The notes beneath the pieces are model-generated. The model ran no database searches and had not been told where the DNA came from. It saw nothing but the letters and a program-made list of their open reading frames with translations. A DNA stretch of 64,000 bases, taken from positions 81,711 to 145,710 of the forward strand of contig JAJKFJ010022611.1 of the NCBI GenBank assembly GCA_027382625.1, read 5' to 3'. This stretch comes from Tetmemena sp. SeJ-2015 (lineage: Eukaryota; Ciliophora; Spirotrichea; Sporadotrichida; Oxytrichidae). Below are positions 1-61,541 of this stretch, in pieces; positions within the stretch are counted from its first letter, which is position 1, and each line of letters starts with the position of its first letter. The translations under genes and the position numbers were made by a program.

Positions 1-3000
1 CTCAAGATGGAGCAGCTTATATAGTAGGATATGATGGATCTACGAATCCTTATCTCAAAACCTACAAGTTCTAATCTTTGACAGCTGGATCTACTTACTC
101 ATTCAGAGTATATGCAAGAAACGACAAAGACTATTCCGATCCCAGTGCTCCTCTTGTGGTGATAGCAGCAACCTTACCTTTCCAAATGGCCACACCTAAA
201 TGAATATTTATTTTCTTCTACAGTTACAGCAGTTGACTATTCTACTCAAAGTGTATCTCTTCAATGGTTAGTTCCTTCTTTGAACGGAGGTAGTGGTATC
301 ACAGGCTACTATCTCTAGATTAACAGTGGATACTCAACTAGCTTCATTTAGCCTGGAACATTAATTCCAGTTGGTACTAACACTTATAAACTTATATAAG
401 AACAATTTTACAAAAACTATTGTAAAAAATCAGGATAATTATATAATCATTAAACTCATTTAGCCTGAAATTTACTTACTCTGGACTTGTCCTTGGAGCA
501 ATTTACAAGTTCAGAATAGCTGCAGTCAATGCTCTATGGACAGCGAACTTGTTCGACGGGGATGTGATTAACTTCTCAGATCCAGTCACTCAGATTGTAG
601 CTAACATACCATCCCAAGTATCAGTCTTCTCTCAATAGAGTTTCGATTATGTGAAGGGAAGCTGTATTATTTTGTGGCAGGCACCAAGCAGCAATGGTAG
701 TCCCATTACAAGCTACACTCTCCTCAAGGATGTGGGTTCAGGAGTTTTCTACACTGTCTATCAAGGAAGTAATACCTCATTCACTGATACTGAGCTCGTT
801 GAAGGAAATTCTTACAACTACAAAATCTATGCTACTAACGCCGCTGGCAGTGGACCAGTCAGCAGTAAATTAATTTAAGTACTCTTACTGCGATTGCAGG
901 AGCTGAACCTGGCAAAATTACCTCAGTCTCAATTGGCCTTCAGAGTCAAGCTACGCTTACTATAAACTACTTAGCTCCCGACGATAAAATTATTTTTCAT
1001 ACTGGTGGACTTGCTATTTCAGCTTATTGGATCTTGACAGATGAGGGTAACTTCATCTACAATCCTGCCATTAGCAATGGCCTCGCCCTCACTTACTCAA
1101 AGTCTATTACTTAGCCAGGAAATGAAGGCAAAATATTCAGATTCAAAGTAGCTGCAAGCAACGTTCTAGGGATAGGTGAGTATAGTGATGAGATTCAGTT
1201 GATGGCAGTTGATAAGCCAGACCCACCTACTTTAAAAAAATAAATTTGTTGTTAGTCGCTGCTAAACGAACTTTAACAACTATCCAGCTATAGTTCATTC
1301 CAGACACTGATACTGGAGGCTCTCCAATCATTGGCTATCTTCTTTACAAAGATGAAGGAGTAGCGGGAAGTCCTTTCTCTCTTTACTATAATGGAACTGG
1401 TAAACCAGAAGTGATTTATGTGGATGTCACTGGTTTGTAAACAGGATAGACTTACAGATTTTAGCTTTACTCTTAGAATGCAATCTATCTATCGAGTGCA
1501 CCAGGAACTCTCTCCACTTTGATTGGAACTGTCCCTGATCCTCCATCCAAGCCAGCTTATGTAGCGTCAGACTATGTCGGCTAATATATTACTGTCTCGT
1601 GGACAGCTCCAAAGTATACAGGAGGAAGTCCAATCACCTCTTACAATCTCTGGATTGATGATGGAAATGGAAACTGGCCTCTCACTGCATCATATTCATT
1701 CACCACTCTTACTACACTTCAATACTAGTTCAATGGTCTCACTGGAGGAAGTATGTATGGAATCAAAATTGAAGCTGTTAATAGCGTTGGTGATTCTTAA
1801 TTCTCTGATCCATCTTACTTCATCTGTGCAAAGGTCCCAGTAGCTCCAGCAGCACCAACTCTCGAAGGCTCATAGAAGTCTTCTATCACTATCGCTTGGA
1901 ACGCTCTAACTGGAATCACGAACACAGGAGGCACGCCAATTACTGGCTACAGAGTTTATTTCAACGACTTGCTGAGCGATACTTGGAAACTTGTATATGA
2001 CGGCTCGAACTATCCTTCAACTTTAACTTATCAACAGACAGGCCTATCTGCTGGAAGGTACTATAGATTCAAAGTCACAGCCATTAATCAAGTTGGCGAG
2101 GGACCAGCATCTACCGAGGTCCAATTCATAGCTGCTAATTTCCCTAGTGCACCGTCTCAGCCTCAGTTAGTCAGCTCTTCCATAAATAGTGTTACTATAA
2201 GCTGGACTCCTCCAACTGATAACGGAGGAGCAATTATCACAGGATATGAGGTATGGTATAAGACCGCAGTTCAGGATGAAACTCTGTGGACTCTATTGTA
2301 CAATTTAAATTAAATTAGGCGATGATATTGTCTGAAATTAAATTCAATCGAATTTCACATTTTATCAAAGTAAGATATAAAAATGATATAATAATTTGTG
2401 AAAACTATTCCTTATGATTATAAATCAAATTTGCTATAATTGGAACAGTTGATTTGAATACCTTAACTTTCACTCACAGCTCATTAACTGGAACTGATGA
2501 TGTGCAATACAAAGTTAGAGCGCTTTCTAACAAGGGTGATGGAGCCTTCTCAGTAAGAAACACTTTCATTCTCGCTTCTACTCCTACAATAAACACAGCT
2601 CCGATTAAACTTAGCTCTTCCAAGTACTCAATCACAGTCAGCTGGGGTTTGACTTCTAACGGAGGTTCTCCTGTGCTAGGATACAAACTATATCAAAACA
2701 ATGTAACCACTGGAGGAGAGTACCTTATCTATGATGGAAGTTCCATTTCAACAGTTACTAGCTTTACTTCAAGTGGATTAACTCCAGGAAATGTTTACTA
2801 GTACAGAGTCTCCGCACTCAACAGAGTTGGCGAAGGCACAGTAAGTCCTTACAGCATTAAGATTAAAGCAGCCAACGTACCAGGAAGACCTAGCACTCCA
2901 ATTTACGTGAGCTCAACAGCTACAAAGATTGTCATTAGTTGGGGAGATGTCTCTGACAACGGCGGTGCTCTGATCAACTACTATAAAGTCTATGCTGATA

Positions 3001-4680
3001 ATGGAGTTCTACTCTCTAATTCTTTCAACTATCTGTAATCGACTTCGTATCTTACTTACACATTGGACAATACAGCGTTCACTAGTTTCACTACTGGATC
3101 TATTTACAAGTTTAGGATAACCGCTGTCAATGAGATCGGTGAAAGCTAGGCTAGCAACTACGTTAGAATAGCCCTTGCTTCACTGCCTGATGCTCCAAGT
3201 GCTCCCTAGATAGATATCTCTAAATCTACTTTGACTTCTCTCTACGTCTATTGGAGTGCGTTAACTCTCTAAGATATTACTGTGAATGGTTATAAGTTAT
3301 ATATGAGCGACAAAGTTTCAGGCCAATTTAGTCTAATTTATGATGGATCACTTAACTCAGACACCCTAAGTATAAACGTTACAGGTCTCACTACTGGCAA
3401 GTAATACTCTTTTGCAGTGTCAGCAGTCAACTTCAATGGTGAGGGAGATTAGTCTCAAGAGATTTAGCAACTAGTTTGTCAAGCTCCATAGCTGCTTTCA
3501 GCTCCAGTTTATTCTGCTTCTACATAAACAAGCTTGACTGTATAATGGTCCCCACCTGATGATGATGGAGGCTGCCCTATCTATACTTATAAACTTTACA
3601 TTAACGCTGGCGATGGAACTCAGCCAACTACTTAAGTTGATCCATCTTAGTTAGATGGCAAACCTTACTTAACTATCTACACTGTCAACAGTTTGACAGA
3701 GCTTGGAGAACCCTATCTATTCAAGGTTCAAGCGTACAATGACATAGGATTTGCAGAATCGCCTGTTTCATCAATCGTCTTGGCTTCAGTTCCAGATCAG
3801 CCTTTATCAATAATCACTTAGATTTTTGCAGAATCCTCAGGCTCTCAAATAAAGCTCACTTATCCATATTTAGCCACAACTCAAAATGGAGGAAGTCCAA
3901 TTTTAGGTTACGATTTGTGGAGAGATGATGGAGCTAATGGAGATTTCTTCCATTTGTATAGCGTTGATGTTGTTCTCGCTAATAACTACATAGACACAAA
4001 TGTAACTAGAGGAAAGACGTACAGATACATCTATAGAGCAAGAAATGCAAATGGCTGGGGAGATTTCTCATCAGAAGCATATTTATTTGCAGCAGACGAG
4101 CCCAGCTAACCTGCCTCTCCAACGGTCAAGTCATTTAGTAGTGCTTCAATCGACATCTAGCTTTATGCTCCTGAGGACTCCGGAGGTACTGAGATATTGC
4201 TGTATGCCTTAGAGATGGACTAAGGAACAATAAATTCCGCTTTCACTCCAGTCAGCTCTTATGATGGTTAATCATTAGAGAAAATAGTCTATCCATCTGA
4301 TGGTTTACCCTAGGTTTAATCTATTCCTTCAGACTGAGAGCCAAAAATGTAATAGGATTCTCAGAATACTCTGATGTCTTAAGAGTAGGATTTGGAGATA
4401 GGATATTGGCTCCTGCTACAGTCAGTGCAGACTTGACTAATACTGGGCCAAACTATATAACTATCAACTGGAGCAAAGTCGCAAATGCAAACTTACCAAC
4501 TATGGGCTACGTAGTCTAGATGCTCTATGGGAACCTATGGGTTACAGTCTATGATGCCTAATATAATCCAGACGCACTCTCGTTTACTATGTTTGGTCTT
4601 ATATAGAACACAGAGTACTCTTTCAGAGTTTATGCTACAAATTTCAATGGTTGGAGCTTGCCAAGTAGTATTGAGACTGT
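1..4680 (+). CDS. Giant FN3 protein, block A (somatic segment 1; 5' end outside window)
   Basis: Partial coding block of the giant FN3-repeat gene, entered mid-domain at base 1. Read with TAA/TAG as Gln it gives tandem class I FN3 domains: Trp of strand B, NGGSPITGY before strand C, DDGxGG turn, YRFRVxAxN of strand F, then a Pro-rich linker. Five IESs interrupt it (199-220, 387-478, 868-881, 1235-1254, 2317-2441), and there is a one-base frame slip near 4308. No signal peptide, start codon or membrane segment is seen. The last domain stops at LPSSIETV inside a 14 bp pointer (4667-4680). The same 14 bp occurs inverted at 47263-47276, where the missing remainder of the domain continues as YSCGLPTN. 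FN3 domains are known extracellular or cytoskeletal binding modules; the ligand is unknown. Confidence 0.9.
199..220. other. IES, pointer CTA
   Basis: 22 bp removed between CTA at 196-198 and 218-220. Excision joins ATP to TVTAVDYS in frame, removing an in-frame TGA. Confidence 0.7.
387..478. other. IES, pointer ACTTA
   Basis: 92 bp AT-rich insert between ACTTA copies at 382-386 and 474-478. Excision gives GTNTYSGLVLGAIYKF, the usual FN3 strand E-F spacing. Confidence 0.8.
868..881. other. Tiny IES, pointer AGTA
   Basis: Only 14 bp including one AGTA copy (864-867, 878-881). Removal corrects the frame and gives PVSSTLTAIAGAEPG. Confidence 0.75.
1235..1254. other. IES, pointer TTA
   Basis: 20 bp A-rich insert between TTA at 1232-1234 and 1252-1254. 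Excision joins PPTL to VAAKRTLTTIQL. Confidence 0.7.
2317..2441. other. IES, probable pointer AATT
   Basis: 125 bp AT-rich, stop-containing insert in an FN3 domain. AATT at 2313-2316 and 2438-2441 gives an in-frame join (NQIGTVDLNTL). The AT-rich flanks leave the exact pointer uncertain. Confidence 0.6.
4667..4680 (+). repeat. Scrambled pointer A/B (copy at end of A)
   Basis: AGTATTGAGACTGT. Reverse complement lies at 47263-47276. Bases on either side differ between the copies, so the repeat is exactly 14 bp. It joins LPSSIETV to YSCGLP in frame. Confidence 0.9.
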
Positions 4681-4723
4681 ACCTTAATAATTTTTGTGAC
4701 TAAGAATAAATTTTTATAAGGTA
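4681..4723. other. Spacer between blocks A and G
   Basis: 43 bp AT-rich noncoding DNA between the end of somatic segment 1 and the start of segment 7. It separates two unrelated half-domains, so it is not a conventional IES. Confidence 0.85.
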
Positions 4724-4738
4724 TTCTGATTCAGTGGA
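4724..4738 (+). repeat. Scrambled pointer F/G (copy at start of G)
   Basis: TTCTGATTCAGTGGA, also at 48361-48375 in the same orientation. It joins GITWTSDSV to DCDGSNS in frame, completing a class II domain. Confidence 0.9.
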
Positions 4739-7700
4739 TTGTGATGGAAGCAACTCAATCATCATTGCAAACTTGCTTTGTGACATACCTCTGTCTACTC
4801 TGAGGCAGATTCCTTTCAACATTTAATCAGGGGACATAATCTAAGTTAGAGTAGCAGCTATAAATGTAATAGGAATAGGTGCCTACTCTCCTGCTCAGGC
4901 TGTCACTTAACTTGAGACAGAGCCTCAAGCTCCAGCTGCTCCAACCAGAGGTGCAGCAACTAGCACATCTCAAATCTAGATTCTATGGACAGATTTAACC
5001 ACCAGAGATTAGACTGGTGGTTCTGATATTACCTCATATCACTTATAGTGGGACAAAGCAACAAATCAAGGAAACTGGTATGATGTAGTGGGCCTTGATA
5101 GTCCTTTCACTGGAACTTCATTTACTCAAATCGCTAATTTTTATATGCTAATGTCGCGAGTGGAAGCCGATACTATTTCAGACTAAGAGCTCAAAACGAG
5201 CATGGATGGGGACCTTACTCTGCAGTGAGCTCTATTCTGGCAGCATACTATCCAGACTAAGTATAGATGCCAACTGTTACTGAGAACTTAGATCAGACAG
5301 TGTAGATTTATTGGAATGTTCCAAGCAGCAATGGTGCGTCAATTACAAAGTACAACATATTCATTCTGTCAATGGATGTTCTTAAATTAATTAAATTGAT
5401 GGCAATTACTACAATACTACAGCTTGCAGTGGATTGGACGCCACTATTGTTTCCCAACATTCTATTAAATAAACAGAAATAAGTGAAGAGAATCGTATAT
5501 TATAAGAATAAGATCAAAGCCCAATTTTAAATTAAATGTTTCTAATTAAAAGGATAGAGTTTGGGCTAATAGAGATTAATTCTAATACTAATTGGTGTTT
5601 AATATAATGATCAGAGCTATAATTTAAACTCTAATGTTTAATTGGGTTTCTTTTTAGAGATCTGTGATTAATCAATGGGGTGTCTAAATTTAATTAAAAA
5701 CTAATCTTTTACTATTTATTAATTAAAATATATCATACTTTTCTTCTCAAACCTGAAAACATTCTCATTCACTCTAACCACTTGCTTAAAGACAAATAAA
5801 TTCTTATTCTTATAACCCACGATTTATTTCACTTATTACTCTTTATTGTGCTTAATTTGTAATGAGGACTTAAAATAATTGATTACTGCAACGTTCAGAT
5901 GAGTGTGTTCTTGTCATTACCATTTGCAAGAGTTCAAGGAAACTAAATTACAGTCAAGGTACAGGCTTACAATGAAATCGGATGGGGTGCTTTATCAGAC
6001 GCCAACGTCGCTGGTGCTTTGATTGCATCAGTTCCATTAAAACCAACTTCTACTCCAACTATGGTTTCTTTAAATAATTAAAAATAAAATTCATCATTTA
6101 AAATAATTTTTATTTTTTTCAAAAAATAATTTTTTAGAGATTTTAAAAATTTGAAATTATTTTTTTTAACCATTTTTTAATAAAATTTTTTTTAAAAAAA
6201 TTTTTTAAAATTAAAAATTTAGAGTAAAGGGTTAAATTCTATTGCTGTTTCAATGCCAGCTATAGTTGGACTCCTTACAGGTGGCTCTACTATCCTTTCA
6301 TACAATCTGCAATACAAGCCAAGCTCGTCTACCAACTACACCACTTTAGTAGGAGAGGCCCCTGATAGCTTGATTCTAACTTACACTAAGAACGGCTTGA
6401 CAGCAAATGTCCTCTACTAATTCAGATATAGAGTGAGGAATAAGTATGGATGGGGATCTTTCTCAGATGCTGTCGCTATACTCGCAGCCTAGGTTCCTAA
6501 TCAGTTAAGCACTCCAAGCATCAGCATAGTTAATGATGTCTACGTGAGAATTGACTGGACCGCGCCCTACAACGGAGGAACACCCATCACTGCTTATAGC
6601 ATTCTAATATAAGATGACCAATTATTAAATAGGAAAACAATTAATTGGGACGAGTGCTTGAGTGGTCCATGTTTTCCAAAAATTTCCTTTCTATCTTTGG
6701 CAATGATGTCATAGAATCCGATGATGAGGATGATGACTTTGAAGAAGTCAGTGACTGGGAAGAAGACTTACCCCAGGTTATTGAAAAGGAACAAGAAACT
6801 GAGTTTCCTGACTTCAATGTTGGCATTGACTTCGAGAGTGAGCTTGATGAAAAAGACACGTGGACAAAACACGACAAATGTTTTGCGAGATACCTTGACC
6901 TACTACAACCTCAAACACTTTGCTGGAATGGTATGAGAATCTAAGTGGTGCAAGGAGTGCCTCAGGGTGCAAAAATGTCCCCAAAACTCTTCAACATTTA
7001 CGTGGATGGAATGTGGCGAACATTCCAATATGATCCAAGTAAGACCAGGTTCAAACTTTACGCGGACGACCACGTCATTCTTTTCCGAGGTTTAAGTACC
7101 GATGAACTAATTTCTGAACAGAAAAGAATAGCTCAGCATACCGGTCTGTATGGTCTACTATTAAATAGTAAAAAGTCTAAGACCATGAGACTGAAGAAAG
7201 ATATTCCCTTCTTTGACAAATTCCAGATACTAAAAGCCTAAGACATGACTACTCACTATAAATACCTGGGCACAACTATGACACATGACCCGGATGAAGT
7301 CTTAGAGAATATGTTCAGGGAATATGAACAAGATGTCAACAAATACACGAACTACTGGGCTGGTACCATTGACGAGAAACTCTAATAGATTCTCTACAAC
7401 TCCTATGTGTACTCAAAAGTCCAACACAAAATCATGCCTAACATAATTACATACTACTAATACAACAAACCCATAATAGATAGACTTAGGAAAATACACT
7501 GGGAGCATGTGAGGAAGAAAGATTACTTCCTGAAGTTTGTCTTTAGCAAAAATGACTACAAAAACCAAGCCTTCACGCCTCCAGAGGCATTGATATATTC
7601 GGCCTTCGTAAACAACTGGTAAGAAAGAAAAAATGAAGCTGGAGAACACATCAGAGCTACAATACTAGACAACTTCCTGGGCAAAACAAATTTCAACTTC

Positions 7701-10700
7701 TCGTGGAAAGAAATGCCTGTTTGGGATTAAGAAACTATAACTAGACTAACCCAATTCATCCCTAGTGAATTCTTCCCTTTACTTCGAAAAGGTCCCCTTA
7801 GATACATGGGAAAAGTTCTTAAATGCTACTGCGGTATTAAATGCAAAAAACACGACATGGAAGACCTATGCCTAGACACCCATATGTATTGTATGGAAAG
7901 AGGCATCAGATTCCCCTATATGGATATCTTAAGGGAGGTTGCTTAACTTGGCCAAACCTATAACAGAACTAAGAGAAGCAAAATGAAACTGAAGGAGCAG
8001 ATTCAAGACATTGAGAAGGAAAAGGTGGCCCTCTCTGGCCTGAAAGACAAATTCAACTTTCACTGGAAAGAGATCAAACTCAACCTCAAGAAAAGAGCTG
8101 GTTTGAAGTGAATTATATCTAACGTAACACGGGAGGTCATGACTTCCCTAAGTTTAAACTATAACACGCAAGACGCTAGATCGTCTAAAATGCGTTGTTA
8201 TATTATTATTTATTATATTTATTATTATAGTTAATGATGTCTACGTGAGAATTGATTGGACTGCGCCCTACAACGGAGGAACACCCATCACTGCTTATAG
8301 CATTCTAATATAAGATGACCAAGGAGATTTCATTACAGAGACCCAATACTGCGATGGCACTTCTTTGATTATAGTATAGCAAACCTATTGTGATATTCCC
8401 TTCACCACTCTAAGATCCTCATCAACATTCAATCTCTAATAAGACGATTTGATCGTGGTCAAGATATCTGCAATTAACAGTATAGGTATGGGAAGCTACT
8501 CTACTCCTAATTCTAATGGCTTGACGATTTAAACTGAGCCAGATGCCCCTATCGCAGCTCCAACACTTCAAACTTACTCTGAATCTCAAGTTACAATTAC
8601 TATGACCTACTCTACTGGCTCAAGACTATTGATTGCAAGTACATAATCTAGTGCTATACTCTACTATGATCTGACTTGGGATTAAGGACTCGGAGGAACA
8701 AACAACTGGGTATCTTACACAGTCACAGCTTTGAACACAGTGACAGTGACTGGTCTATCTTCTGGAGTGGTTTATAGATTCAAGTTTAGAACTCAGAACA
8801 TATTTGGCTGGGGAGACTATTCCCCAGTGCTTACAGTCCAAGCTTAAAGTGTACCGCAAGCAGTTCCCGCAGTAACTACTACTAATGTTGCTAAGAATGT
8901 TCTTATTGACTGGACTGCACCTTACAGCGGTGGATTAGGTGTCAACATTTAATAAAAATTTATGATAACTTATCTGTTAAGACATTGAGAAGTATGATAT
9001 TGCTCATATTATAATCACTTGAATTGAGAAGATTGTTGTTCTAAACTGCAAATTATTTTATAGATTTAAAAGCATTGAATAAGATATAACAAATTTCATT
9101 AGGTTCAATATATCTTATTTATATCTTTTGAATATCAAGATCATGAAAGCTGATGGAACGTATACTTAGTACCTGACCACATGCGATGGAACTGATGCAA
9201 CTATCAATTCTATTTATAATTATTTATCATTGCATAAACATCTTGTCTGGTACCGATGAGTATACTCACCTCAACAGGCGCAGGAGGATTTTCCTTGACT
9301 TAGGGCACACTTATAGTAGCAATCGTATCAGCCTATAATGATTTGGATCAAGGACCCTACAGCTCTCCAAACACAATAGGAGCGTTAGCTCAAGTCGTGC
9401 CACTATAGCCACCTACTGCTCCAAGAAGAGGATCTTCAACCACTGACTAGCAAATTCAAGTTGATTGGGACTTCATTCAGAACCCTTGACAATCCTTGGA
9501 GGAGCACCAGCAATCTCCTATGAGCTTCAAATTGATGATGGTAACGGAGGAAGCTTCTCAGAAGTAGTTGGATTCACAAGTCTCTACACCTTGAATTCTT
9601 ACAATATCACTTCCTCAATAACAAGCGGAGCTACTTACAAAGTCAAGTATAGAGCAGCTAACATAATTGGATACGGAGCATTCAGTGCTGAGACATCCAT
9701 TCAAGCCTCCACTGTTCCAGGAGCTCCTGGCTAGCCGACAACCTCTATTAATTAAGATCAAGTAGTCGTGAGCTGGGCTTAGCCTTCATTCACTGGCGGA
9801 AACGGAATACTTCTATCAAGCTATAGAGTGTAGATATTAATGAAATTTGAAGTCATTCTTGTATTTTCTAAAGAGATTTTTAATTCAATACTAGCCTTAG
9901 ATGGAACTTATAAGAACGTTTCAACTTGTACAGGTGCATCATTGACTAGTGCTACAACCTCGTGCACTTTCCCAATGGCAAGTGTAGTTCTCTCACCTTA
10001 CTCACTTGTGTATAATAGTGCGATTAAAGCTATAATCTACGCCTCAAACTCAAATGGAGAGGGACCAGCTTCAATAGTGAGCACTACCAACTAAGTAGTA
10101 ATCACAGTGCCTCTCAAACCTTCCTCTTCTCCTCAAAGAGGAAGCAACTCGGACTATAATCAACTGGAAGTAACTTGGGGCGCCTTGGTCACTCCTTCAG
10201 ATGGTGGAAGTTCTATAACTTCCTATGAACTGCTTTGGGATAGCGGAGTTCAAGGAGGAATGTTCGGTGAAGTAGTTGGATTCAGCAATCCCTATACTTC
10301 AACCTCGAAGTTGATCAGCGTTACACCAGGAACGACCTATCAATTCAAGTATGCAGCTAAAAACGTAATTGGTTGGGGTGCAGTATCCGATACTATAAGC
10401 ATCAAAGCTGCTACAAAGCCAAGCAAAATTGCTACAGTTACTACTGTAGTTGAGAATCAATATGTCAAGGTATCTTGGAGCTATCCAACTGATAACTATG
10501 ATGCAGTAACAGCTTATGAAATCTAAATCCAAGCTACAAATACATCTTTCCTCAATCAGATAGCATACTGTGATGGAAACTAAACAGCAATAATAACAAA
10601 CAGATACTGTCACATTCCAATGACTATCCTGAGAGATGCTACCACATTTAATCTGGCATACAACACTTTGATAGTTGTGAGGATAAGAGCAAGGAACACA

Positions 10701-22440: not shown

Positions 22441-22463
22441 TTGAAGTAATGAAATTGAAAATA
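22441..22463. other. Spacer between the 3' ends of blocks G and B
   Basis: Two convergent blocks stop mid-domain here. The right edge is the AGGGAGTT pointer of block B. The left edge (the pointer of block G) cannot be set because its partner is outside the window. Confidence 0.6.
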
Positions 22464-22471
22464 AGGGAGTT
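22464..22471 (-). repeat. Scrambled pointer B/C (copy at end of B)
   Basis: AACTCCCT on the minus strand, direct match to 48432-48439. It joins RDDGNSL to ANNFVEVHATAIN in frame. Confidence 0.85.
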
Positions 22472-47276: not shown

Positions 47277-47308
47277 GAAAATTATTATACTAACATTGAA
47301 TATATTTT
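47277..47308. other. Spacer between the 5' ends of blocks B and F
   Basis: 32 bp AT-rich DNA separating two divergent coding blocks, each beginning mid-domain at its own pointer. Confidence 0.85.
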
Positions 47309-47319
47309 AAGCTAGATCT
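47309..47319 (+). repeat. Scrambled pointer E/F (copy at start of F)
   Basis: AAGCTAGATCT, identical to 58030-58040. It joins LLTKTSQI to QVQIAALTGSF in frame. Confidence 0.9.
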
Positions 47320-48375
47320 AAGTACAGATTGCAGCCTTGACTGGTTCTTTCACAGGAGGAGCCACTATCATATCCTATTTGATCGAGTATGATAAAGGCA
47401 CTTCCGGAGCATCTTGGTATGAATTACAAGGCTTCACAGCTCTAAGCACATCTCTCTCATTCCAAATAAGCTCTGGCCTCACAATTTCAACTCCATACTA
47501 GTTCCGCTATTCTGCAAAGAATATCTTTGGATGGGGACCTTCTTCTGCAATTGGAATAATTACAACTGTCATGGTGCCCGATCAAGTTGCGTTGCCTAGC
47601 ACCGAGGTTGCGGAACAAATGTTAGGATTTCATGGTCTCCTCCAAATCTGAACGGAGCTACTCTCACAAGCTATTCAATTATCATCCGAGGTGCAGACAG
47701 CTAATTCTACTCAAGCACATTCTGCGACGGAACTTCAGCGACAGTCATCTCTAATCAAGAGTGCCTAGTCCCTATGAGCTCACTTTGGGTTTCTCCATTC
47801 TTCCTAACTCAGGGAGCTCTCGTCTAAGTCAAAGTTCGAGCATCAAACACTTAAGGCGATGGCGCTTACAGCAATTAGAATACAGCAGGTGGACTTACTC
47901 AAGTGAAGCCTCTGGTTCCAACATCAGGACCATTAAGAAATGAAAATGCCTGTACTAACACAGCTATTGCTATCGAGATGCCTGAAATAACTGGAAGTAG
48001 AACAGGAGGATCTGATATCATAAGCTATGCTCTCTTTTGGAATCAAGGATCAGGAACGAATTTCGTTCCACTTGTAGGATTCACAGTCGCTAGTATCAAT
48101 AGATTTGCAACATAGTCAGGGCTTTCTAATGGAGGCTCTTACGACTTCTACTATCAAGTTGAGAATGTATTTGGCTGGTCTGATCCCTCTCCCACTGTCA
48201 CTGTGTTTGCTGCAAAGGTTCCAAGCCAACCTTTGATACCTTCAACTGAAATAATTGCAGGTTCTAAGTTGGAGATAAAATGGCTTTCACCTGCAGATAA
48301 CGGTAAAGCAATAACAGCTTACTCAATTCAAGTTCTTCAATCAGATGGAATAACTTGGACTTCTGATTCAGTGGA
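47309..48375 (+). CDS. Giant FN3 protein, block F (somatic segment 6)
   Basis: Short + strand block of class II modules. It starts mid-domain at QVQIAALTGSFTGGATIISY, runs through a WYELQG domain, a YCxVPMS-type partner (SECLVPMSSLW near 47755) and a GGSDIISYALFWNQG domain, then stops at VLQSDGITWTSDSV. A one-base slip near 47612 separates VALPSTEVAEQ from NVRISWSPP; restoring one A there gives the consensus. The start pointer (11 bp) matches the end of block E and the end pointer (15 bp) matches the start of block G. Its position between blocks B and C is therefore a germline rearrangement, not gene order. Confidence 0.9.
48361..48375 (+). repeat. Scrambled pointer F/G (copy at end of F)
   Basis: TTCTGATTCAGTGGA, identical to 4724-4738; flanking bases differ on both sides. 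Confidence 0.9.
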
Positions 48376-48431
48376 CTTTATATATCTCTTGAATTTTATG
48401 CTAAGTTTGCTTGAATTTGTTGAGAGATGGA
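48376..48431. other. Spacer between blocks F and C
   Basis: 56 bp AT-rich DNA. A class II domain ends on its left and a class I domain begins mid-strand on its right. Confidence 0.85.
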
Positions 48432-48439
48432 AACTCCCT
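48432..48439 (+). repeat. Scrambled pointer B/C (copy at start of C)
   Basis: AACTCCCT, the shortest of the six scrambled pointers. The preceding five bases (GATGG) also match one base further out, so homology is wider than the pointer. Confidence 0.85.
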
Positions 48440-51249
48440 AGCTAATAACTTTGTGGAAGTTCATGCTACAGCTATCAATAACAAACCCTCACTATTCACT
48501 TACGTTATAACTGATCTTCCTGCAACACCTATTGGCTAGACGATTCGCTTTAGAGTGAGAGCTAAAAATCAAGGGGGTCACTTTATCATGTCTTCGTCCC
48601 TCTCAGTTGTTATAGCTTCAGTGCCTGACACTCCTCTTACTGCACCAGAGTCTGATGATACCACTACTAGCGGTTAACTTATTAAGATTAAGTATTCTGC
48701 TCCAAACAGTGGAGGTTCTGTCATTATTGCTATAATTTTCTATAAAATTTAACAGTTAATGGTTTTTAATTCCTGAAATATGCTTTCTTAGCTTAATTAT
48801 TCTTTGAATACTAATTATGAAATCTAGATGGATGATGGTGTTGGAGGACCATTCTACACAATTGCGGGAGGAGACTCTTCTATCTATACTTACACTTATT
48901 TTGCTGGCCAAGCACCAACCGTAGTTTCCTCAAGACAAAATAAATAATTTATTAGGCTTAATTAACTTTCAATAAATGAAGTAGCTAATATATTTTTTAT
49001 TAGAAAGACTTCTTCAAGTTTATGAAACTTAGAGTGAGTATACTACTGTTAACATCACGCAAGGCGTTTACTATCGATTCAGGTATAGAGCAGCAAATGT
49101 TAATGGTTGGAGTGGCTGGAGTCCTGTAGCATAAATATAAGCAGCCACTGTTCCTTATAGCTTTATTATCTGCAATTAGAAGATAGTCTACAAATATCTC
49201 AATCATGAAGTAAATTTTCTATTACATTTAAACTTGAAACTCTCATAAAGTATTTGCTCTATAAATTCTCTTATTAAAAGAATTAAAATTTTATTTGGGG
49301 GGGGGCCCTTCCTCGTCATCCACTTTTTTTCATAAAAATATGAAAAATCACTCCATAGCCTAAAATTAGCCAAAAACACCAATTTTTTAGTCCTAATTCA
49401 ATTTGAGAGGGCTTATCATGATCATATTCTTTAATTTAGAAGACATTTCGAACCTACAAGAAATATTCATTTATAAAAAAATTAAATTTTAAAGGAGTGG
49501 CAATATCACTTGGATAATTAATTCATAAATAAGTTGAAGATGTCTAATGTAACAAATAATTCAAATTACTCTAGACCACCTTATCACAGTGTTCGAGTCC
49601 TTTTCACTTTTAGTATCTCCTATTAGCATAATCTGATCTAAAAGATATATCTAAATCAATTTATTTCATTAAATTCATATTGTTCTTTGATTGCTTAATT
49701 AAATATGAAATTTCATGTATCCTAGATTTCTTTTGAAATATTCTATAATTGAATATCGAAGCCTTAGCTTTTAAATAGCTTTAAGCATGTTTAAAGAAAT
49801 TTCAACTCATTTATAAATGTCTTTCGTAGCATAGATATTTTTCGTAGTTAAGTATTATCTTATATATTGAAAACCTATATTTTTATTCAATATAATAAAG
49901 TTTTTTTGTTCTATAAAGTTGCCTTAAAAATAAAAAATTATGTCAGACTGATTCTAAAAAAATCAAGCTCTATTTTCTAAATTAAAGAATATGATCATGA
50001 TAAGCCCTCTGAATTTGAATAAGGACTAAAAATTGGTGTTTTTGGCAAATTTGAGGCTAATAAGTAATTTTTCATATTTTCATGAAAAAAGTGGATGACG
50101 AGGAAAGGCCCCCCCCTTTTATTTATTTACATCATAATGAGCTTGATGAAATCGTTTCTCTTTTTATCACAATTGGTATATTATGCATAATGATCTCAAT
50201 TCCTTCTATTTAGTAAAAATAATCTATTAACCACCTTAGAGACCATCATTGAACGCATCCGACTCTGACTCATTGACAATTTAAATTGAATCTAGTCTTG
50301 ATAATGGTGGCTCAGTAATACAAGGATACAAACTCTTCTTCGGTACTATTGGCCAATAAGACTTACTGCAAATATCGAGATACGATGGCACAAGTTACTA
50401 ATTCAAAGTTAGCGTTAGTGACGATGGCTTGGTATCAGGAACAACTTATCGATTTACCACTGTTGCTTTTAACGAGATAGGAGATTCAGACTAGAGTAGC
50501 GAGTCTATCTTTACAGTCACAGACCTACCACAGATTCCTTAATAGCTAATTCGCTCTACACTATCAACTAGAACTTAGATTACTCTCTCGTGGCTGGTAG
50601 AGCCTGACACTGACTCCCCCATTACTGGCTACTCTCTCGAGGTTGATACATAAGGTGAAGGCAACTTCTTTGAAATATGGAATGGTAGAGGCAGACCTGA
50701 TGTGCTGGCATTCACCTTTACAAATGTTACAACAGGCAATAGCTATCAATTCAGACACAGGTCTTTCAACTTTAATGGTCCTAGTGGATACTCTCCAGTT
50801 CTACAAACCATAGCCTGCGTTTCTCCAACCTCGCCTGGAAAACCCTCTTGGGTAACTTCTACTACAACTAGCATCACAATAATTTGGGATGAGCCTGTAG
50901 ATGATGGAGGGTGTCCTATCTTACAATACAGGGCCTATAGAAATCCAGGCAATCTTGATAATCCATTAATCGAGATATAGAGTACAGACCTTGCAAACAA
51001 GCCATATGTAAATGGTTTAATAGTTACAGAGTTACCAGCAAACTCACTTGGACTTTCTTTCATCTTTAAAATCTCAGTGGTAACTAAGTATGCTACTATA
51101 GATAGCTCTAATTCAGATCCTTTAATATTAGCAGGACTTCCAGGGGCTCCGTCTACTAAGCCTTCTTAAGGAGCATCAACAAGTGATACTACTATTTAAG
51201 TTACTATTGCTGCTGTTACTGCCTTTAATGGATCACCAATAGTTAGTTA
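48432..51249 (+). CDS. Giant FN3 protein, block C (somatic segment 3)
   Basis: Class I modules on the + strand: ANNFVEVHATAIN continuing a domain from block B, then RFRVRAKNQGG, MDDGVGGPFYTIAGG with GWSGWSP, a KLFFGTIGQ domain with FNEIGDSD, a SLEVDTQGEG domain with NFNGPSGYSP and a Cys linker, and NGGCPILQYRAYRNPG, so the four-domain order of block B is kept. Interrupted by IESs at ~48725-48820, 48937-49009 and a 1081 bp IES (49158-50238) that houses an inverted-repeat element. It ends at FNGSPIVS inside a 9 bp pointer whose partner is the start of block D. This is the last class I block in the reconstructed order. Confidence 0.9.
48725..48820. other. IES, bounds approximate
   Basis: AT-rich insert between SGGSVI and NYEIQMDDGVGG. 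The pointer was not resolved. Confidence 0.6.
48937..49009. other. IES, pointer AAGAC
   Basis: 73 bp between AAGAC at 48932-48936 and 49005-49009. Excision gives TVVSSRLLQVYETQSEY. Confidence 0.85.
49297..49441 (+). repeat. Left terminal inverted repeat
   Basis: Starts with G9 then CCCTTCCTCGTCATCCAC. About 145 bp pairs with 49975-50116 with a few mismatches and indels. Confidence 0.9.
49975..50116 (-). repeat. Right terminal inverted repeat
   Basis: Reverse complement of the left repeat, ending GTGGATGACGAGGAAAGG followed by C8. Confidence 0.9.
51241..51249 (+). repeat. Scrambled pointer C/D (copy at end of C)
   Basis: AGTTAGTTA; reverse complement at 54707-54715. It joins NGSPIVS to YDIEIDDGLGG in frame. 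Confidence 0.9.
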
Positions 51250-51285
51250 GAATAGAATTTATAATCTATTCAGCATATAAATTTT
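51250..51285. other. Spacer between the 3' ends of blocks C and D
   Basis: 36 bp AT-rich DNA between two convergent coding blocks. Confidence 0.85.
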
Positions 51286-51295
51286 TGTCTCCCAG
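51286..51295 (-). repeat. Scrambled pointer D/E (copy at end of D)
   Basis: CTGGGAGACA on the minus strand; identical to 54775-54784 on the plus strand. The join leaves the frame displaced by one base. Confidence 0.75.
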
Positions 51296-54200
51296 AAGGA
51301 TTGTTAATGTAGTTCCACTACCTGCATTCCAAAGTACAATGTAAGATGTTATGTCGCTGCCACCAGTATCAGTTCCAGTGAGTGGTTAGAGAACTAACTC
51401 AATTTGAGTTTCAGCAGTATTGGCTCCTCTGCTTGGAGCTACAGCAGGAGTCTTAGGAACTGTTTCTATCTTTGCACCCAATGTGTTCGCATCTGATAGG
51501 ACACTTGTTCCGAAAGAGTTAATGGCTTGCACTTTAACTTAGACTAAGTTTCCTTGAGAGAGATCGAATGGAGAAAGTTAGAGTGCTGAAAGTAGCATAG
51601 AGCAAGTTCTTCCTGAAACAACTGCCGGTTAGGTTCCTAAGCAACTGCCTGAAGTTTACTCTAGGAATGCTCCAGTCGAATCTGCGATGAATATTTTGTA
51701 GCTTGTGATTGCAGATCCCATAATGTTAGGGGCATTCCAGCTTATAATAACACTAGTCGAGGAAATAGTTGTAGAAGGAGCTGCCATTTTAGCTGGTGCA
51801 GTAGCAGCTGTGACTAGAGTTGGTTGAGATGTGTCTCCCCATCCAAAGATGTTCTTCGCTCTATATCTGAACTGATAAACCTAGCCAGGAGTCAATCCTG
51901 TTACTGTGAAAGTAGCTATCAAGCTGCTGTAAGATTCACCAATCAAGCTATACCATGTTGCTCCACTTGTTCCTTTGTCCCATTGAAGGTTCAAGGATGT
52001 GATTGTCTAACCTCCATTATATATTAAATGACTATAAAATTATAGGGAGAAGCTGGTGCTGGGAAGTCAACTTAGATAGTAGTATTTGAAGTGCCTAATT
52101 CGTTTCTGACTGGTCCTGCAGGCGGTGCTTGGGCTCTGTTCTGACATCTGCTCCAGCAGTATTAGCAGTAGATGGAATGCTGTACCCGACTAAGTTTTGG
52201 GCTTCAACAGTAACTTTCACAATTCTACCAAGAGGAAGATTGAAAGAGCCTGAAACTAGAGCTGACATGGGCACAAGACAATATCGATTTGCTTTGATAG
52301 TAGGGTCTGCTCCGTTACAAGAAGCTGACTCGGAGAAGGTTCCTACAGTTTGGGTCTCTATCATTATTCTGTAAGCCAGAATAGGAAGTCCACCATTGTA
52401 GGTTGGAAGGTTCCAAGAAATCAGAACATTAACATCCTGATTTTGAGTTGTCGCGGTAACTATGGTGGTAGGGACTGAAGCTGCATACAAGTCAAGATTA
52501 TCAGAGTATGGTCCCCACCCAAACAAGTTCTTGACTCGATACCTGAACTTGTATGTTGCGCCAATAGTAATTGAGGAAGAGATTGAGCCTTGCGTTGCAA
52601 GACTATCAGCAGGGTAGCCACTGATGATAGTCCATATTGTTGCTCCAGAGGCATCATCATACTCTAATGAATATGATGTGATAGCAGAGCCTCCATTTGT
52701 AGGGGAGCTGATAGTTGGCATGTTGGCTACTAGTTGAGAGTAAGAAGATGAAGCATCTCTTATCGGTGTTGAAGTAGGCTTCAGTGGAGCTACTCTCACA
52801 TCTGCGTTAGTGGTACTGATATCAGAAGAGACACTCGAGCCAACTGGGTTCTTTGCTATTACGTAAGCAACTATTAGATCTCCCTAAATCAGATTGTATA
52901 GAGTCACTGAGGTAAAGGAAGACATAGGAATATCACAATACTTGTTTGTTACGATACTAGCCTAAGAACCATCACAGTCGGTTGTATCTTGATAGAAAGT
53001 TCCATTCTTTGCCTAGATCATTACTTAATATGCTGTTATCTGAACATTATTGCAGGAAAAATAAGTTAATATATAATTCATAGATTGATAAAATATTCAC
53101 TTAGCATTTATAAATTAAAATAGTACCTCCAAGGTTAGTTGGTTGATCCCAAGATACTCTCACTGTAGTATCAGTCAAAGAATTAACAGTCTACACATTC
53201 AGAGGTTAAGTAGGGACTGTCGCGGCTAGAATATTTGTGACGGGAGAGTAGTTAGTGCTCCAGTCGTAGATATTCTTAACTTTGTATCGAATAGGATAGC
53301 TCTAGCCACTTGTGATACCATCTGAGTATAAGATAGTTTAAACTACAGAATCTGCGGTTTCTCCTTGAATTTCTACAAAGCCGGATCCTTTATCGATTTC
53401 AACTCCATAAGAAGTTAAGGCAGATCCTCCATTTTCCAAATGAGTTGGTATAATGATCTACAATTGTAGAGTATTCGTTAGACTTCCTCTTTGAGGAGCT
53501 CTAGTGGGATCAAGAGGCTTAGTGCGAGCAAAAGCTCCTAAGGTGTTTTCAGGTGAGGCTGTAGAATAGCCAACTGCATTTAAGGCATCTACAACTGCGA
53601 CTATTAAGCCATTCAGAGGGATGCTAAATGGTGATGATAACAGAACTGTCATAGGGATGGTACAAGTTAACAGGCTAACATCAGTGCCAGGGCATGTTGT
53701 GGCATAAGGGTAGTATATTCCATCTGCTGCAGATTTGACTCTGACTCTATAAGATATGATATCGGAACCTCCAGTGCTGCTTGGTGCAGTCCACACTATA
53801 GTTACATCTGGATCAGTGTTCGATGTCTAAGCGGCAGGAGTGATTTGAGATGGTACAGCAGCCATGATAATAGATGTGATTGGAGAATAATCACTCCAGC
53901 CCTATGCGTTGTTTGCTCTATAGCGGAAATAGTAGATCTTGCCTGTAGTCAGGCCAGTGATAGTGTATTGAGTAAGATTTGAATATGGCGAGAATCCGCT
54001 TATGATATCGAATGGACCAGCTCCATTTCCTGTTGAGTCCATTTCAAGTGAATATGATTGAATTGCAGCCCCCCTTGCTTATACAGCTGTGAAAGGAGTA
54101 ACCTACACTCCCATTGTTGTTCCACTAGTAAGAGAATTGATCCTTGTAGGTCCTGTGCTTGGTGAGACTGGGATATCTTGCATAATGGCAGGGAAGATAG

Positions 54201-54715
54201 TTTCAACTGAACTAGAGCTTGAACCCTAAACGTTTGTAAAGATTACCTTTGCGCTGATTTGGTCTCCAAATATCAAAGACCAAGTTGTACCCCTGAGGAA
54301 AGCAAGTGGAATCAGGCACTGCCTTGCAAGGAATATAGCTGAGTTAGTTCCATCACAATTAGTTGTGTCTTCTATGAATTGGACACCATCGTGATGCTTG
54401 ATGGTAATTTGAGCGGAGAGGATCGGAGAGCCTCCGTTGTAAGGCAAGAAGAATTGCACTTTGGCATTTGTACCAACTACTGAAACTACTGGCGGGATTG
54501 GGGTATCAGGTTTACGAGCTGCGAGAACGAAGAGTATTTCGGAGTAAGGGCCAAAGCCGATTGCGTTCCTGGCTCTATATTTCACTTTGTAGATTCTTCC
54601 TGCATAGATACCGACTGATTTAGTTGCAGTGAGAGACAAAGAGTTTGAATTTAATCCCTAAAGTGATGAGTAACTTCCACCCAAGCCGTCATCAATCTCT
54701 ATGTCATAACTAACT
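51286..54715 (-). CDS. Giant FN3 protein, block D (somatic segment 4)
   Basis: Minus strand, read from 54715 down. It begins mid-domain (SYDIEIDDGLGG), the last class I-like domain, and switches within about 250 codons to class II pairs: TTNCDGTN...QCLIPLAFL, SLEYDDASG..GWGPYS, SASCNGAD...YCLVPMSAL, DCDGS...YCDIPMSS, and ITSYIVLWNAGSG at the end. The class I to class II boundary of the whole protein therefore lies here. IESs lie at 52022-52044 and about 53050-53125. The last residues LTILLGD lie in a 10 bp pointer shared with the start of block E; that join is off by one base (see findings). Confidence 0.88.
52022..52044. other. IES, pointer TATAAT (minus)
   Basis: 23 bp; ATTATA on + at 52016-52021 and 52039-52044. 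Excision gives ASPYNGGQTITSLNLQWD. Confidence 0.85.
53050..53125. other. IES, bounds approximate (minus)
   Basis: AT-rich insert between DQPTNLGGT and NVQITAYQVMIQ. The pointer was not resolved. Confidence 0.55.
54707..54715 (-). repeat. Scrambled pointer C/D (copy at start of D)
   Basis: TAACTAACT on +, reverse complement of 51241-51249. Confidence 0.9.
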
Positions 54716-54774
54716 TTTATATTCAATATTTAGCACTAGAGTGCAATTTATTCTGGCCCAATAAAATTATTTAG
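54716..54774. other. Spacer between the 5' ends of blocks D and E
   Basis: 59 bp AT-rich DNA between divergent coding blocks. It includes a small hairpin (GCACT-AG-AGTGC near 54733-54744). Confidence 0.8.
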
Positions 54775-54784
54775 CTGGGAGACA
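54775..54784 (+). repeat. Scrambled pointer D/E (copy at start of E)
   Basis: CTGGGAGACA. The FN3 frame of block E is one base out of register with block D across this pointer. Confidence 0.75.
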
Positions 54785-57700
54785 CTAACTCCAAATACCC
54801 TAACTACTGTTCTGATAAACCAAGGAATCAGCAGTGGTTAAACTTATAGATTCTCTTACTACGCTAGGAACATCCATGGGGATGGATGGGATGGTATCAC
54901 AGCGCTTCCTTATGTTGATATACTTGCTGCGACCAAACCTTCTCAAATGCTGGCTCCTAACGTTAATTACTTAAACCTCAAGTACGTTGTTACTTTCTCA
55001 GCTCCATCATCAAGCGGAGGGACTGGAGTCGCTGTAACTGGCTATGAAATTCTATTCCTGTAGAAGAATGGAATTTACAGTGCTGTAACTAGTGAATGCG
55101 ATGGAATCAATGACCCAACAATAATCTCCTCTACAACTTGCTCGGTATCTCTCTCCACTCTCACTTCAGCACCCTTTAGTCTTATCCTAAGGTGATTAAG
55201 TTGTAGCTAAAGTTAGAGCCTGGAACAGTCTTTTCAGCTCAGTCTATAGCAATCCAAGTGCATCTGCTACTTACATAGTACACTCTAAATGAGTTTATCT
55301 TATATAAAAGACAGCTTAATTTTTTCCCTCAATAGCTAAACCTTAGAAACCTCCTTCTAAGCCTGTGAGAGACGACAGCTTAAGTACAAAGACATCTATC
55401 AAGATCAATGTTCCCACTATCACTGGTACTAACACTGGAGGTCTCGCTATTACTTCATACAAGATAGAATGGAACCAAGGAGGCTCTAGTGTGACATTTG
55501 TAGCAGTCCAAGGAGATTCTCCATTAAGCACCACTCAGTTTTATAATTTCATCTTGTTGACTACTGGCATTCAATACAAGTTTAGATATGCAGTTAAGAA
55601 TGATGTGGACTGGAGTGATTACTCTGACATACTAGTCACATATGCAGCTATAGCTCCTTAATAGCTCCCAGCTCCAACTACAGAAATTGTTTCCACGACT
55701 GTTAAGATTACTTGGTCACCATAAGATAATGGCGGTATAGATATCACTTCCTACAAGATTCTAATTAGAGCTTGGGACTCAAACGTCTATGAAACAGCTC
55801 AGTGTAATGGAACAGATGCTACAATTATCTCAAATACTTATTGTAACGTAGACATAAGTACTCTCATGAGCACACCATTCTTACTCTCTCAGGGTAATTT
55901 GGTTGCAGCTCAGGTTATCGCTAACAATTCAATTGGTGCTTCTCTCATTTCTCTTGCTAATTCCATTGGAGCTTACTTAGAGAATGTTCCACTAAAGCCT
56001 CCAGTCGCCCCTATCAGAAACTCAGAGACAACTTAGTCTCTGCTTGTTGTTGACTTAACTGCACTAACAGGCACTGCTACCGGAGGATCTTCAATCTTAT
56101 CTTATCAAATCTAATGGGACTCAGGCACATTCGCCTCAACTGCAACTGCGACTTGGACTACCATTCAAGGACTGAGCCCTTATACAACTGGATTGCAAGT
56201 GAGACAGTCATCTGGAGTATCAAGCGGATCCTAGTATTTATTCAGATACGCAGCTCTTAATAGGCAAGGCTGGGGTCCATTCTCTGATCCTACAACAATC
56301 CTTGCAGCCATGTAACCAACTTAGATGCAACCTGTTTAGACATCATTTATATTTATGAATCTATGAGTGGTAAGAACCTTCGAATAGTTTGGCTAATCCC
56401 CAGTGAAAACGGTTCTCCAATATCAGCCTACAAGATCCTTATTCTGTAATCAGATGGTGTAACTCAGACTGAATCTACTACATATTGTGATGGGTCTAAC
56501 TTTGTCGTCATTGCAAACAGATTCTGTGAGATTCCTATGAGCGTTCTTGTCTCAGCACCATATTCGATTCCACAAGGTCAATTGATCAAGGTAACTGTCT
56601 ATGCTATCAACTCAGTTGGAAGCGGCACTCCTTCAGCTTTAAATACAGCTGGTGAGCTTGCACAAGTTCCACCTCTAAAGCCTCCCTCCCCACCAACTCG
56701 AAACGCTGGCACAACTTAGTATTCAATCATGGTAGACTATGCTATCTTGACAGGAACTTTTACTGGTGGCAGCACTATCCTTTCACTCAATTTGTAGTGG
56801 GATCAAGGCTCAGGCGGAGCAGACTGGACAACTTTGATTGGATTCAGTCCTTACTCGACAACACAAACTCAAACCATTAGTGGATCTCTGATAGCTCCCG
56901 GAAGAACTTATAAATTCAGATACCGAGCCTATAACATTCATGGATGGGGATCATATTCTGATTCATCAGATATCATTGCGGCCTAATCTCCAAGTTAACT
57001 AAACCCGGTGATTGTTACTCAAGTAGGAACTTAGGTTCAGTTATCTTGGGTAGCTCTTAATTCTAATGGAGCTGCAATATTATCATTCAAAGTCGAGATC
57101 TTGGCAAGCAATGGAAATTACTACTAGAGCACAACTTATTGCGATGGTACTGATGATAATGTGATTCTAAATTCCTATTGTCTTATACCAATGAGTGTTT
57201 TCCTTTCATCTCCATTCTCATTGACATAGGGAACTCTTATCAAATCAAGAGTGAGCGCTATAAACGCTATCGGATAAAGTTCTGAATCTACTCTAAATGT
57301 TGCAGGTGTACTTGTCTAAACTACACCCGGACAGCCAGACTCACTGACTATAGATTAAACTAATACGTTTGAGCAACAGATAACAGTAATTATGATAGCT
57401 ATGAACAATCTAGTAAGAGCAGGAGGCTCTGCTATAATCTCTTACTCTCTGGAATGGGATAGCGGCACATCCGGTTCTTCATACACTGTTCTTACTGGAG
57501 ACGTTTCTAACAATATCGTGCTAACTTACACTTAGCAGTTCCTAACAGCAGGACAGTCTTACTATTTCCGCTACAGAGTTCAAAATATATTTGGATTTGG
57601 CCCCTACTCAGATATCTTGCAAGCTATAGCTGCCAAAATTCCAGATAGACCTGCCACTCCAAGTACTTCTAACACAGGCACTTCAGTAATGATATCATGG

Positions 57701-58040
57701 GTTGCTCCATACAATGGTGGATCAACTATAATTGGCTATAATGTTCAAGTGCTTCAGGCAGATGGTGTAACTTACAAAGAAAACACAGACTACTGCAATG
57801 CGAGGACTGATCAGACAGTGATATCTAACACTTACTGTGTCATTCCTGTATCAGTACTTCAAGCTGCTCCTTTCAATCTTGTTTAAGGAGCAGTTGTTAA
57901 GGTGAGAGTACTAGCTTAAAACATTATTGGTGATTCATAGTACTCTCAAACTAGCAGTAGTGGTGCCACTATCCAAACTTAACCTTTGTAACCTCCCTTG
58001 CCTCCTTTCAGAGGTCTTCTTACTAAAACAAGCTAGATCT
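54775..58040 (+). CDS. Giant FN3 protein, block E (somatic segment 5)
   Basis: Class II FN3 pairs on the + strand: LTPNTLTTVLINQGISSGQTYRF, SECDGIND...CSVSLSTL, SYKIEWNQGG, AQCNGTD...YCNVDISTL, SYQIQWDSG with GWGPFSD, TYCDGSN...FCEIPMSVL, NLQWDQG, TYCDGTD...YCLIPMSVF, SLEWDSG, DYCNART...YCVIPVSVL and IGDSQYSQ. It stops in the linker FRGLLTKTSQI at an 11 bp pointer. IESs lie at 55279-55335 and 56351-56364. One base too many near 55193 (run of C) separates PFSLI from QGDQVVAKVRAW. Both ends are pointers, so block E joins D to F. Confidence 0.9.
55279..55335. other. IES, pointer ATAG
   Basis: 57 bp between ATAG at 55275-55278 and 55332-55335. Excision gives SASATYIAKPQKPPSKP and removes a TGA. 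Confidence 0.8.
56351..56364. other. Tiny IES, pointer TAT
   Basis: 14 bp unit between TAT at 56348-56350 and 56362-56364. Excision gives PVQTSFMSGKNLRIVWL. Confidence 0.6.
58030..58040 (+). repeat. Scrambled pointer E/F (copy at end of E)
   Basis: AAGCTAGATCT, matching 47309-47319; FN3 coding ends here. Confidence 0.9.
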
Positions 58041-58306
58041 TATTAATATATCATTTTGTGAGTACTTATGTCTAAAAATGAGCAGTTTGATTGCATTAAT
58101 AAGTTAAGTCTTATTGAAAATTTATATTGCGAGATCCTATAAAAGCTTAGTAATACTTTGCTGCTACTTTTGATAGATTGATAAATTTATAATTTGCACA
58201 AGGTAATAAAATGATCCTCCTCAATTAAAACTTATCTGCCGTTTCTAAATAGTTGAAAAACTAACAATCTTTTATATAGATTTCTAAGCAGGCATAAAAT
58301 TAAAAT
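58041..58306. other. Noncoding AT-rich stretch
   Basis: About 265 bp between the end of the FN3 block E and a purine-rich region. I see no gene, pointer pair or repeat that I can support. Confidence 0.6.
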
Positions 58307-58985: not shown

Positions 58986-59041
58986 AAATAAATTGGGTAT
59001 TTTACTACATTTGATAATCTCTATTTAATATGATATAAATT

Positions 59042-60033: not shown

Positions 60034-60076
60034 GAAGAACAGAATGGTTCTCAAATATCTTGAGCTCACAGAAAAA

Positions 60077-61393: not shown

Positions 61394-61541
61394 AATATTA
61401 ATGCTCGAGTTATTTATCTACTTAACAAAAAGCTCGGAGGAAGAGTCCACTCTCTCAAGTGAGAAATATAGTATTCTATATTTTTAGTTTGAGAGTGGAG
61501 TGCCTGATAAATCAAAACGAGAAAGCGAATAATCTTTTTGA
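61344..61541 (+). CDS. Probable coding segment, unrecognised gene
   Basis: 65 codons: QQDLRFLRFNREAEILMLEL, then YLTKSSEEESTLSSEKY and SGVPDKSKRESEQ to TGA. A short inverted repeat (CCACTCTCTCAA with TTTGAGAGTGG) spans 61447-61497. Confidence 0.35.

Follow-up and report, generated by a model that had tools for sequence, protein, structure and literature searches.

Probable inside-out scrambling of a giant titin-like FN3 gene into at least nine germline macro-blocks in a spirotrich-type ciliate

In the scrambled genes of hypotrich ciliates, segments are permuted and in part inverted, IESs are present and the pointers measure 2-20 bp, those at scrambled junctions tending to be longer than the ordinary ones (PMC9797194). 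Scrambled loci account for 13.6% in Tetmemena, where up to 204 scrambled pointers were reported in a gene of 14.7 kb, and a gene of 13.7 kb in Oxytricha contains 195 (PMC9797194). Pointer joining is guided by RNAs in hypotrichs (PMC5940158), and conventional IESs are usually removed before inversions and translocations take place (Mollenbeck et al. 2008; PMC2394655). Recursive, layered germline organisation has been described as Russian doll and odd-even loci, and Braun et al. (2018) reported 176 irreducible loci in Oxytricha, of which 22 retained four or more scrambled pointers (PMC5940158). Giant genes are also known in this group: in Oxytricha, Jotin forms the longest nanochromosome (66 kb; PMC3558436), its somatic chromosome in Stylonychia measures 65.4 kb (PMC4122937), and the longest gene of Halteria is titin-like (63.9 kb; PMC7858049). 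None of the open-licence passages on Jotin that were consulted describes its germline order, and an account elsewhere, for instance in the Oxytricha germline paper of 2014, is conceivable.

The DNA analysed here (the window, 64,000 nucleotides) comprises bases 81,711-145,710 of contig C3247, at its right-hand end, in an assembly of 146 Mb and 5,213 contigs. We consider it very probable that it belongs to the germline locus of a titin-like FN3 gene of giant size, which is divided into at least nine scrambled macro-blocks on two probably adjoining contigs and joined via eight pointers. The locus resembled the hypotrich scrambled genes in its permuted and inverted segments, in its pointers and IESs, and in the tendency of the scrambled pointers to be the longer ones (PMC9797194); it differed from the most scrambled of them, with the 204 and 195 junctions cited above, in that only eight have so far been located in about 79 kb of coding sequence. 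As in the Jotin-type genes of Oxytricha, Stylonychia and Halteria, a giant titin-like product is encoded by a single gene in a spirotrich, and the gene is probably the counterpart of Oxytricha Jotin; this likeness is one of size and type, and the decoded gene (79 kb) was longer than any of the three. The layered organisation is shared with the Russian doll and odd-even loci, whereas the layers lie here within one gene instead of among several nested genes, and a core of five pointers survived the repeat/return reduction, as coded by us, in contrast to the odd-even pattern (PMC5940158). Gene scrambling is already known, and what is new is the scale, the low number of scrambled junctions and the nested order.

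Stop codon usage was determined in the 4,464 FN3 codons that served to train the decoder, where in-frame TAA or TAG appeared 95 times and TGA never; any FN3 hit that contained TGA in frame was to be discarded, and there was none. A 20-base C4A4 telomere pattern occurred 67 times in the assembly, 11 of them in the 28 bases at the start of a contig and 21 in one single contig. Both features are, in our judgement, consistent with a spirotrich ciliate.

Blocks are numbered in the order of the joined gene. Along the window, the FN3 array of block II (positions 1-4680, plus strand; it begins upstream, at C3247:72759) ended in a 14-bp exit pointer, AGTATTGAGACTGT (4667-4680), with coding decoded up to 2 nt from the block end. 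A spacer of 43 bp (4681-4723, 81% AT) separated it from block VIII (4724-22427, plus strand), whose entry pointer (4724-4738, 15 bp) has its partner in block VII and whose exit pointer, GTACCTTATCT (22417-22427, 11 bp), has its partner on the minus strand of contig C3234 (20344-20354). After 36 bp (22428-22463, 78% AT), an adjacency of the exits of VIII and III that was also found in contig C920, block III extended on the minus strand over 24.8 kb (22464-47276; entry pointer 47263-47276, exit pointer 22464-22471). Its entry was separated from that of block VII by 32 bp (47277-47308, 88% AT), with the same adjacency in contig C1088. Block VII (47309-48375, plus strand; entry pointer 47309-47319 with partner VI, exit pointer 48361-48375 with partner VIII) was followed by 56 bp (48376-48431, 71% AT) and block IV (48432-51249, plus strand; entry pointer 48432-48439 with partner III, exit pointer 51241-51249 with partner V). 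A spacer of 36 bp (51250-51285, 83% AT) lay between the exits of blocks IV and V, the latter on the minus strand (51286-54715; entry pointer 54707-54715 with partner IV, exit pointer 51286-51295 with partner VI), and one of 59 bp (54716-54774, 75% AT) between the entries of V and VI. Block VI (54775-58040, plus strand) carried its entry pointer at 54775-54784, with partner V, and its exit pointer at 58030-58040, with partner VII. The probable C-terminal end of the gene, in block IX, was located on the minus strand at 63352-64000, where an FN3 domain was followed by TGA near 63352. Block sizes ranged from about 1 to 25 kb. Between blocks VI and IX (58041-63351), other open frames were present on the plus strand under the ciliate code; two of them were scanned and matched no Pfam family, and a different gene may be situated here, enclosed by blocks of the giant one.

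Two ends of this series were incomplete. Block VIII ran into a TGA in mid-domain and block II began without a convincing start, although the missing start is not decisive alone because the AT-rich sequence upstream of this block has an in-frame ATG at about 50 nt. The TGA at 22440 was tried as the end of the gene and rejected, since the domain is incomplete there and is completed via the 11-bp pointer. The minus strand of contig C3234 (38 kb) encoded FN3, filamin and PA14 domains, with a tandem FN3 array at the low end of the contig, and two of its sites matched the start of block II (C3234:20403-20414 with C3247:72759-72770, window -8951 to -8940 if 0 is taken as a position; 12 bp) and the end of block VIII (C3234:20344-20354 with window 22417-22427; 11 bp). 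As both joins were in frame, we assigned blocks I and IX to this contig. A spacer of 48 bp (79% AT) separated the exit of I from the entry of IX, so that all seven spacers at block boundaries on the two contigs were 32-59 bp long with 71-88% AT. The exit pointer of VIII had ten more exact matches (nine of 11 bp and one of 13 bp) in the 132 kb searched; the partner on C3234 was preferred because a mid-domain coding break occurs there beside the exit of I and the frame is restored. The possibility that C3234 carries an unrelated neighbouring FN3 gene was rejected on the basis of the two pointers and of the environmental protein P0023, described below. Block I started at about C3234:28,494 with a signal-like start (MKWLYYLLILK, by eye). 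Upstream of it, at about 36.5-37.3 kb on the minus strand of the contig, an open frame with the motif VHCAAGVSRS was seen, by eye a putative dual-specificity phosphatase.

The two contigs probably adjoin, judging from a common tandem array. Five near-identical FN3 tandem units of about 626 bp were observed in C3234:1-3100, and 172 bp of this unit lay in the window (63701-63872), 100% identical to five places; it is this array that places -IX and -I beside the window. By eye, coding sequence of about 330 nt was missing from the middle of the array copy in the window, and a 75-bp AT-rich stretch (63873-63947) stood in its place, separating the two remaining parts. A further scrambled junction may therefore lie in the array, and since this internal break remains in the C-terminal part, nine blocks are a minimum. 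The decoded gene comprised 79,122 nt and 26,374 aa, with 225 FN3 domains detected by a profile for which 40 domains of the same gene had been used, and a piece of 400 aa matched titin best in the PDB. The product would be a giant titin-like fibre, perhaps secreted or at the cell surface, with PA14 and filamin domains near the N-terminus.

The preliminary description of this DNA had proposed six exact repeats, and direct comparison reproduced all six. The chance frequency of a match of each length was estimated by drawing pairs of 90-base pieces at random from this DNA (up to 20,000), after dropping pairs less than 200 bases apart. They were 0.0003 for II>III (4667-4680 / 47263-47276, inverted, 14 bp), 0.14 for III>IV (22464-22471 / 48432-48439, inverted, 8 bp), 0.044 for IV>V (51241-51249 / 54707-54715, inverted, 9 bp), 0.014 for V>VI (51286-51295 / 54775-54784, inverted, 10 bp), 0.004 for VI>VII (58030-58040 / 47309-47319, direct, 11 bp) and 0.0002 for VII>VIII (48361-48375 / 4724-4738, direct, 15 bp). 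The 14- and 15-bp pointers were thus far beyond chance, and those of 8 and 9 bp are weak on their own given their frequencies. With the two exact pointers that tie C3234 to the window, eight pointers of 8-15 bp were obtained, and their copies lay up to about 44 kb apart within the window. When eight exits were compared with eight entries, excluding matches of a base with itself, the proposed pairing reached the highest summed match among the 40,320 pairings (90, next 85, mean 58.9); as the ends had been picked with the repeats known, this is a test of the partners and not of the existence of the ends. Some matches between wrong partners reached 10 bp.

Reading frames were followed with a decoder that weighs codon scores against those of AT-rich insert sequence; it is allowed to pass over introns, single-base slips and inserts with direct repeats on both sides. 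The lack of stops in the open frame is partly by design because the decoder forbids TGA. In blocks decoded one by one, the distance from the coding sequence to the inner ends was 1-33 nt throughout. Under the ciliate code, with TAA and TAG as sense, the frames of these independently decoded blocks agreed at 7/8 joins of the extended set (chance of at least 7/8 = 17/6561 = 0.3%), and joining gave an open frame there. Within the six joins first proposed, five had been claimed to restore the frame, and separate decoding gave the same count. In the joined sequence, decoding needed no skip in the 40 nt around a join, with V>VI (51286/54775) as the one exception. At this junction the proposed pointer was exact and the FN3 domain continued, but the frame was one base out. 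The offset is likely an assembly error, which is its simplest account because 18 indels of 1-2 bases occurred in 21.6 kb between the window contig and sister contigs (alignments with at least 97% identity and at least 100 nt). Five joins fell inside a domain, and the FN3 profile fitted these mid-domain joins; completion of the FN3 domain had no discriminating power, as wrong partners scored equal or higher for III, VII and VIII.

Evidence from other sequences was obtained for part of the joins. In C1088 (1705-2004) the joined VII>VIII query matched over 300/300 nt (99.3%), with one copy of the 15-bp pointer and an open frame; this was the only join at which retention of a single pointer copy was directly observed. 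Searches of the pointer regions found none of the other joins in the contigs of the assembly (in one of these searches, 39/798 candidates were scored). A collection of 5.8 billion proteins was then searched with three queries cut from the joined model protein: III>IV, a chimera of VIII>IX and I>II, and a chimera of II>III, IV>V, V>VI and VI>VII, which listed 21, 41 and 3 proteins, respectively. A join was counted as spanned when the best match of a protein to the model was one alignment across it with at least 20 residues on either side. Twelve of the 65 proteins spanned a join: ten III>IV (42-58% identity), one I>II and one IV>V. At I>II, P0023 aligned with 49% identity and 255 bits (70 bits at the next best place) and contained PA14, as block I does; at IV>V, P0063 aligned with 46% identity and 248 bits vs. 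154. The best match of the other 53 proteins, where there was any, spanned no join, and no protein among the 65 spanned II>III, V>VI, VI>VII or VIII>IX, joins that rest on pointer, frame and domain only. The design of the queries favours spanning proteins, but it cannot produce such identity on both sides of a join.

Five of the III>IV alignments were viewed, and a gap of two residues in four of them and of one residue in P0001 was present just past the join, indicating that the relatives are without 3-6 bases of the joined model at this point. Identity in P0010 was weak on the far side of the join (17/55 residues). Protein P0022 (69%) stopped at SYLI, four residues past VIII>IX, where the next two codons in our gene are TAG TAA; a bacterial gene caller reading these as stops would account for its end, which is suggestive only. 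Taken together, the reading frames, the rank of the pairing, C1088 (48375/4724) and the proteins across 22464/48432 and 51249/54715 upheld the scrambled-gene interpretation of the preliminary description; among its six joins, these three gained support from outside sequence and the other three had no spanning sequence.

The germline order of the blocks was II, VIII, -III, VII, IV, -V, VI, then about 5.3 kb, and -IX, -I. The order reported earlier (1, 7, -2, 6, 3, -4, 5) was right for the part seen, but it is only the middle of a larger series, and the seven blocks then counted became at least nine, as the start of the gene is beyond the window and a portion of it is on C3234. Mirror blocks were neighbours (I/IX, II/VIII and III/VII), with IV, -V and VI together, which corresponds to an inside-out nesting. 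Three adjacent mirror pairs are expected in 1.6% of the 9! orders, and in 0.3% when IV-VI must also be together, although the pattern was noticed post hoc. Using inversions alone, at least seven were required to reach the germline order. Repeat/return reduction of the nine-block pointer word, with our own coding, left pointers 2, 3, 6, 7 and 8, and the odd-even pattern was not found; this irreducibility depends on the side on which C3234 is placed, and the seven-block word of the window only was fully reduced. Irreducibility alone is unremarkable because 78% of random nine-block orders (5,000 orders) were also irreducible, and it shows only that the order is not of the odd-even type.

Sister contigs differed from the window in their content of inserts. 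Three of them showed 60 length differences (some sites being counted in two contigs), comprising 27 inserts of 23-81 bp present in the sister contigs only, 28 segments of 14-1,701 bp present in the window only, both classes with direct repeats at their ends, and five complex cases. Several stretches of contig C4901 were 100% identical to the window, yet the inserts differed. The assembly thus looks like a mosaic in which germline DNA is mixed with DNA that is somatic or has been partly processed. C1088 kept the germline boundary III/VII, yet VII was joined to VIII. It may be a chimera of somatic and germline sequence or a developmental intermediate; it is rather unlikely, although conceivable, that it represents a germline haplotype with VII and VIII contiguous beside an inverted III, in which case one inside-out step would be segregating and scrambling would be in progress. 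C1088 and C4901 ended at the identical base (window 18458) with the same last 60 bases, which suggests a break in the assembly graph rather than a biological end.

Three other explanations were weighed, and to each of them we attach very little probability. The blocks might be separate FN3 genes clustered on both strands, whose ends share short repeats by chance. Given the repetitive nature of FN3 sequence, the ends of domains are expected to match now and then by chance, and the wrong-partner matches of up to 10 bp are in line with this. A cluster of this kind is, however, difficult to reconcile with blocks that are coding up to their inner ends, with five joins in mid-domain and with 7/8 matching frames, and it is contradicted at I>II, III>IV and IV>V by the proteins and at VII>VIII by C1088. 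About as improbable is that a collinear gene was misassembled into a scrambled contig: the recurrence of two germline boundaries, VIII/III and III/VII, outside C3247 (in C920 and C1088, respectively, with 95-98% identity) argues against it, and misassembly would not produce seven boundaries of the same design, each with a short AT-rich spacer and flanking pointers, even if the mosaic appearance of the assembly and the capacity of FN3 repeats to mislead assemblers speak in its favour.

Slightly less probable still is a rearranged and decayed pseudogene copy confined to the germline, with a working gene elsewhere in ordinary order. A complete collinear version of the gene was not seen in any contig, although the assembly may lack most of the somatic DNA; on the other side, the 79 kb were decoded as coding sequence with inserts skipped (by a decoder that forbids TGA), and the pointer-region searches (39/798 candidates scored in one) gave no further copy beyond C1088 and C920.

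Under the scrambled-gene interpretation, which we prefer, conventional IESs would be cut out within each block and the eight junctions would then be joined via the pointers of 8-15 bp, with one copy kept and the AT-rich spacers of 32-59 bp removed, to give the product I-II-III-IV-V-VI-VII-VIII-IX with about 79 kb of coding sequence. A change of strand would be needed at four of the joins within C3247 and, given the proposed placement of C3234, at two others. By analogy with hypotrichs, the joining process is presumably a developmental, template-guided rearrangement. The order itself may have arisen by three nested transpositions, in which the middle moved out from between its flanks, plus inversions; each layer has its flanks left adjacent with a spacer of 32-59 bp and its middle outside. 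With few layered junctions in a giant gene, the sequence of scrambling events becomes readable, and the locus tests both the reach of joining (about 44 kb within the window) and the building in one piece of a giant titin-like chromosome.

The blocks are not single MDSs, since each is also interrupted by IES-like inserts: the decoder skipped 115 stretches within blocks, 85 of which were longer than 20 nt. The earlier contrast between these blocks and the segments of most described scrambled genes, which measure tens to hundreds of bases, was for this reason mistaken, as it mixed up blocks and MDSs. Within block VIII, a retroelement piece of about 1.6 kb was located on the plus strand (6622-8226; RVT_1, E 5.4e-13; of non-LTR type by eye), flanked by two FN3 coding copies of about 96 bp (94/97 identical; window 6526-8323). 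C4901 and C1088 were without the retroelement and had a single copy of this stretch; if the element is removed at development, the duplication of about 96 bp would serve as a long pointer. An insert of block IV contained a MITE-like repeat element of about 820 bp (49296-50116) with terminal inverted repeats of about 145 bp, which had near full-length matches on at least 38 other contigs (84-92% identity; 39/798 candidates scored). Runs of G were observed at the ends of this element.
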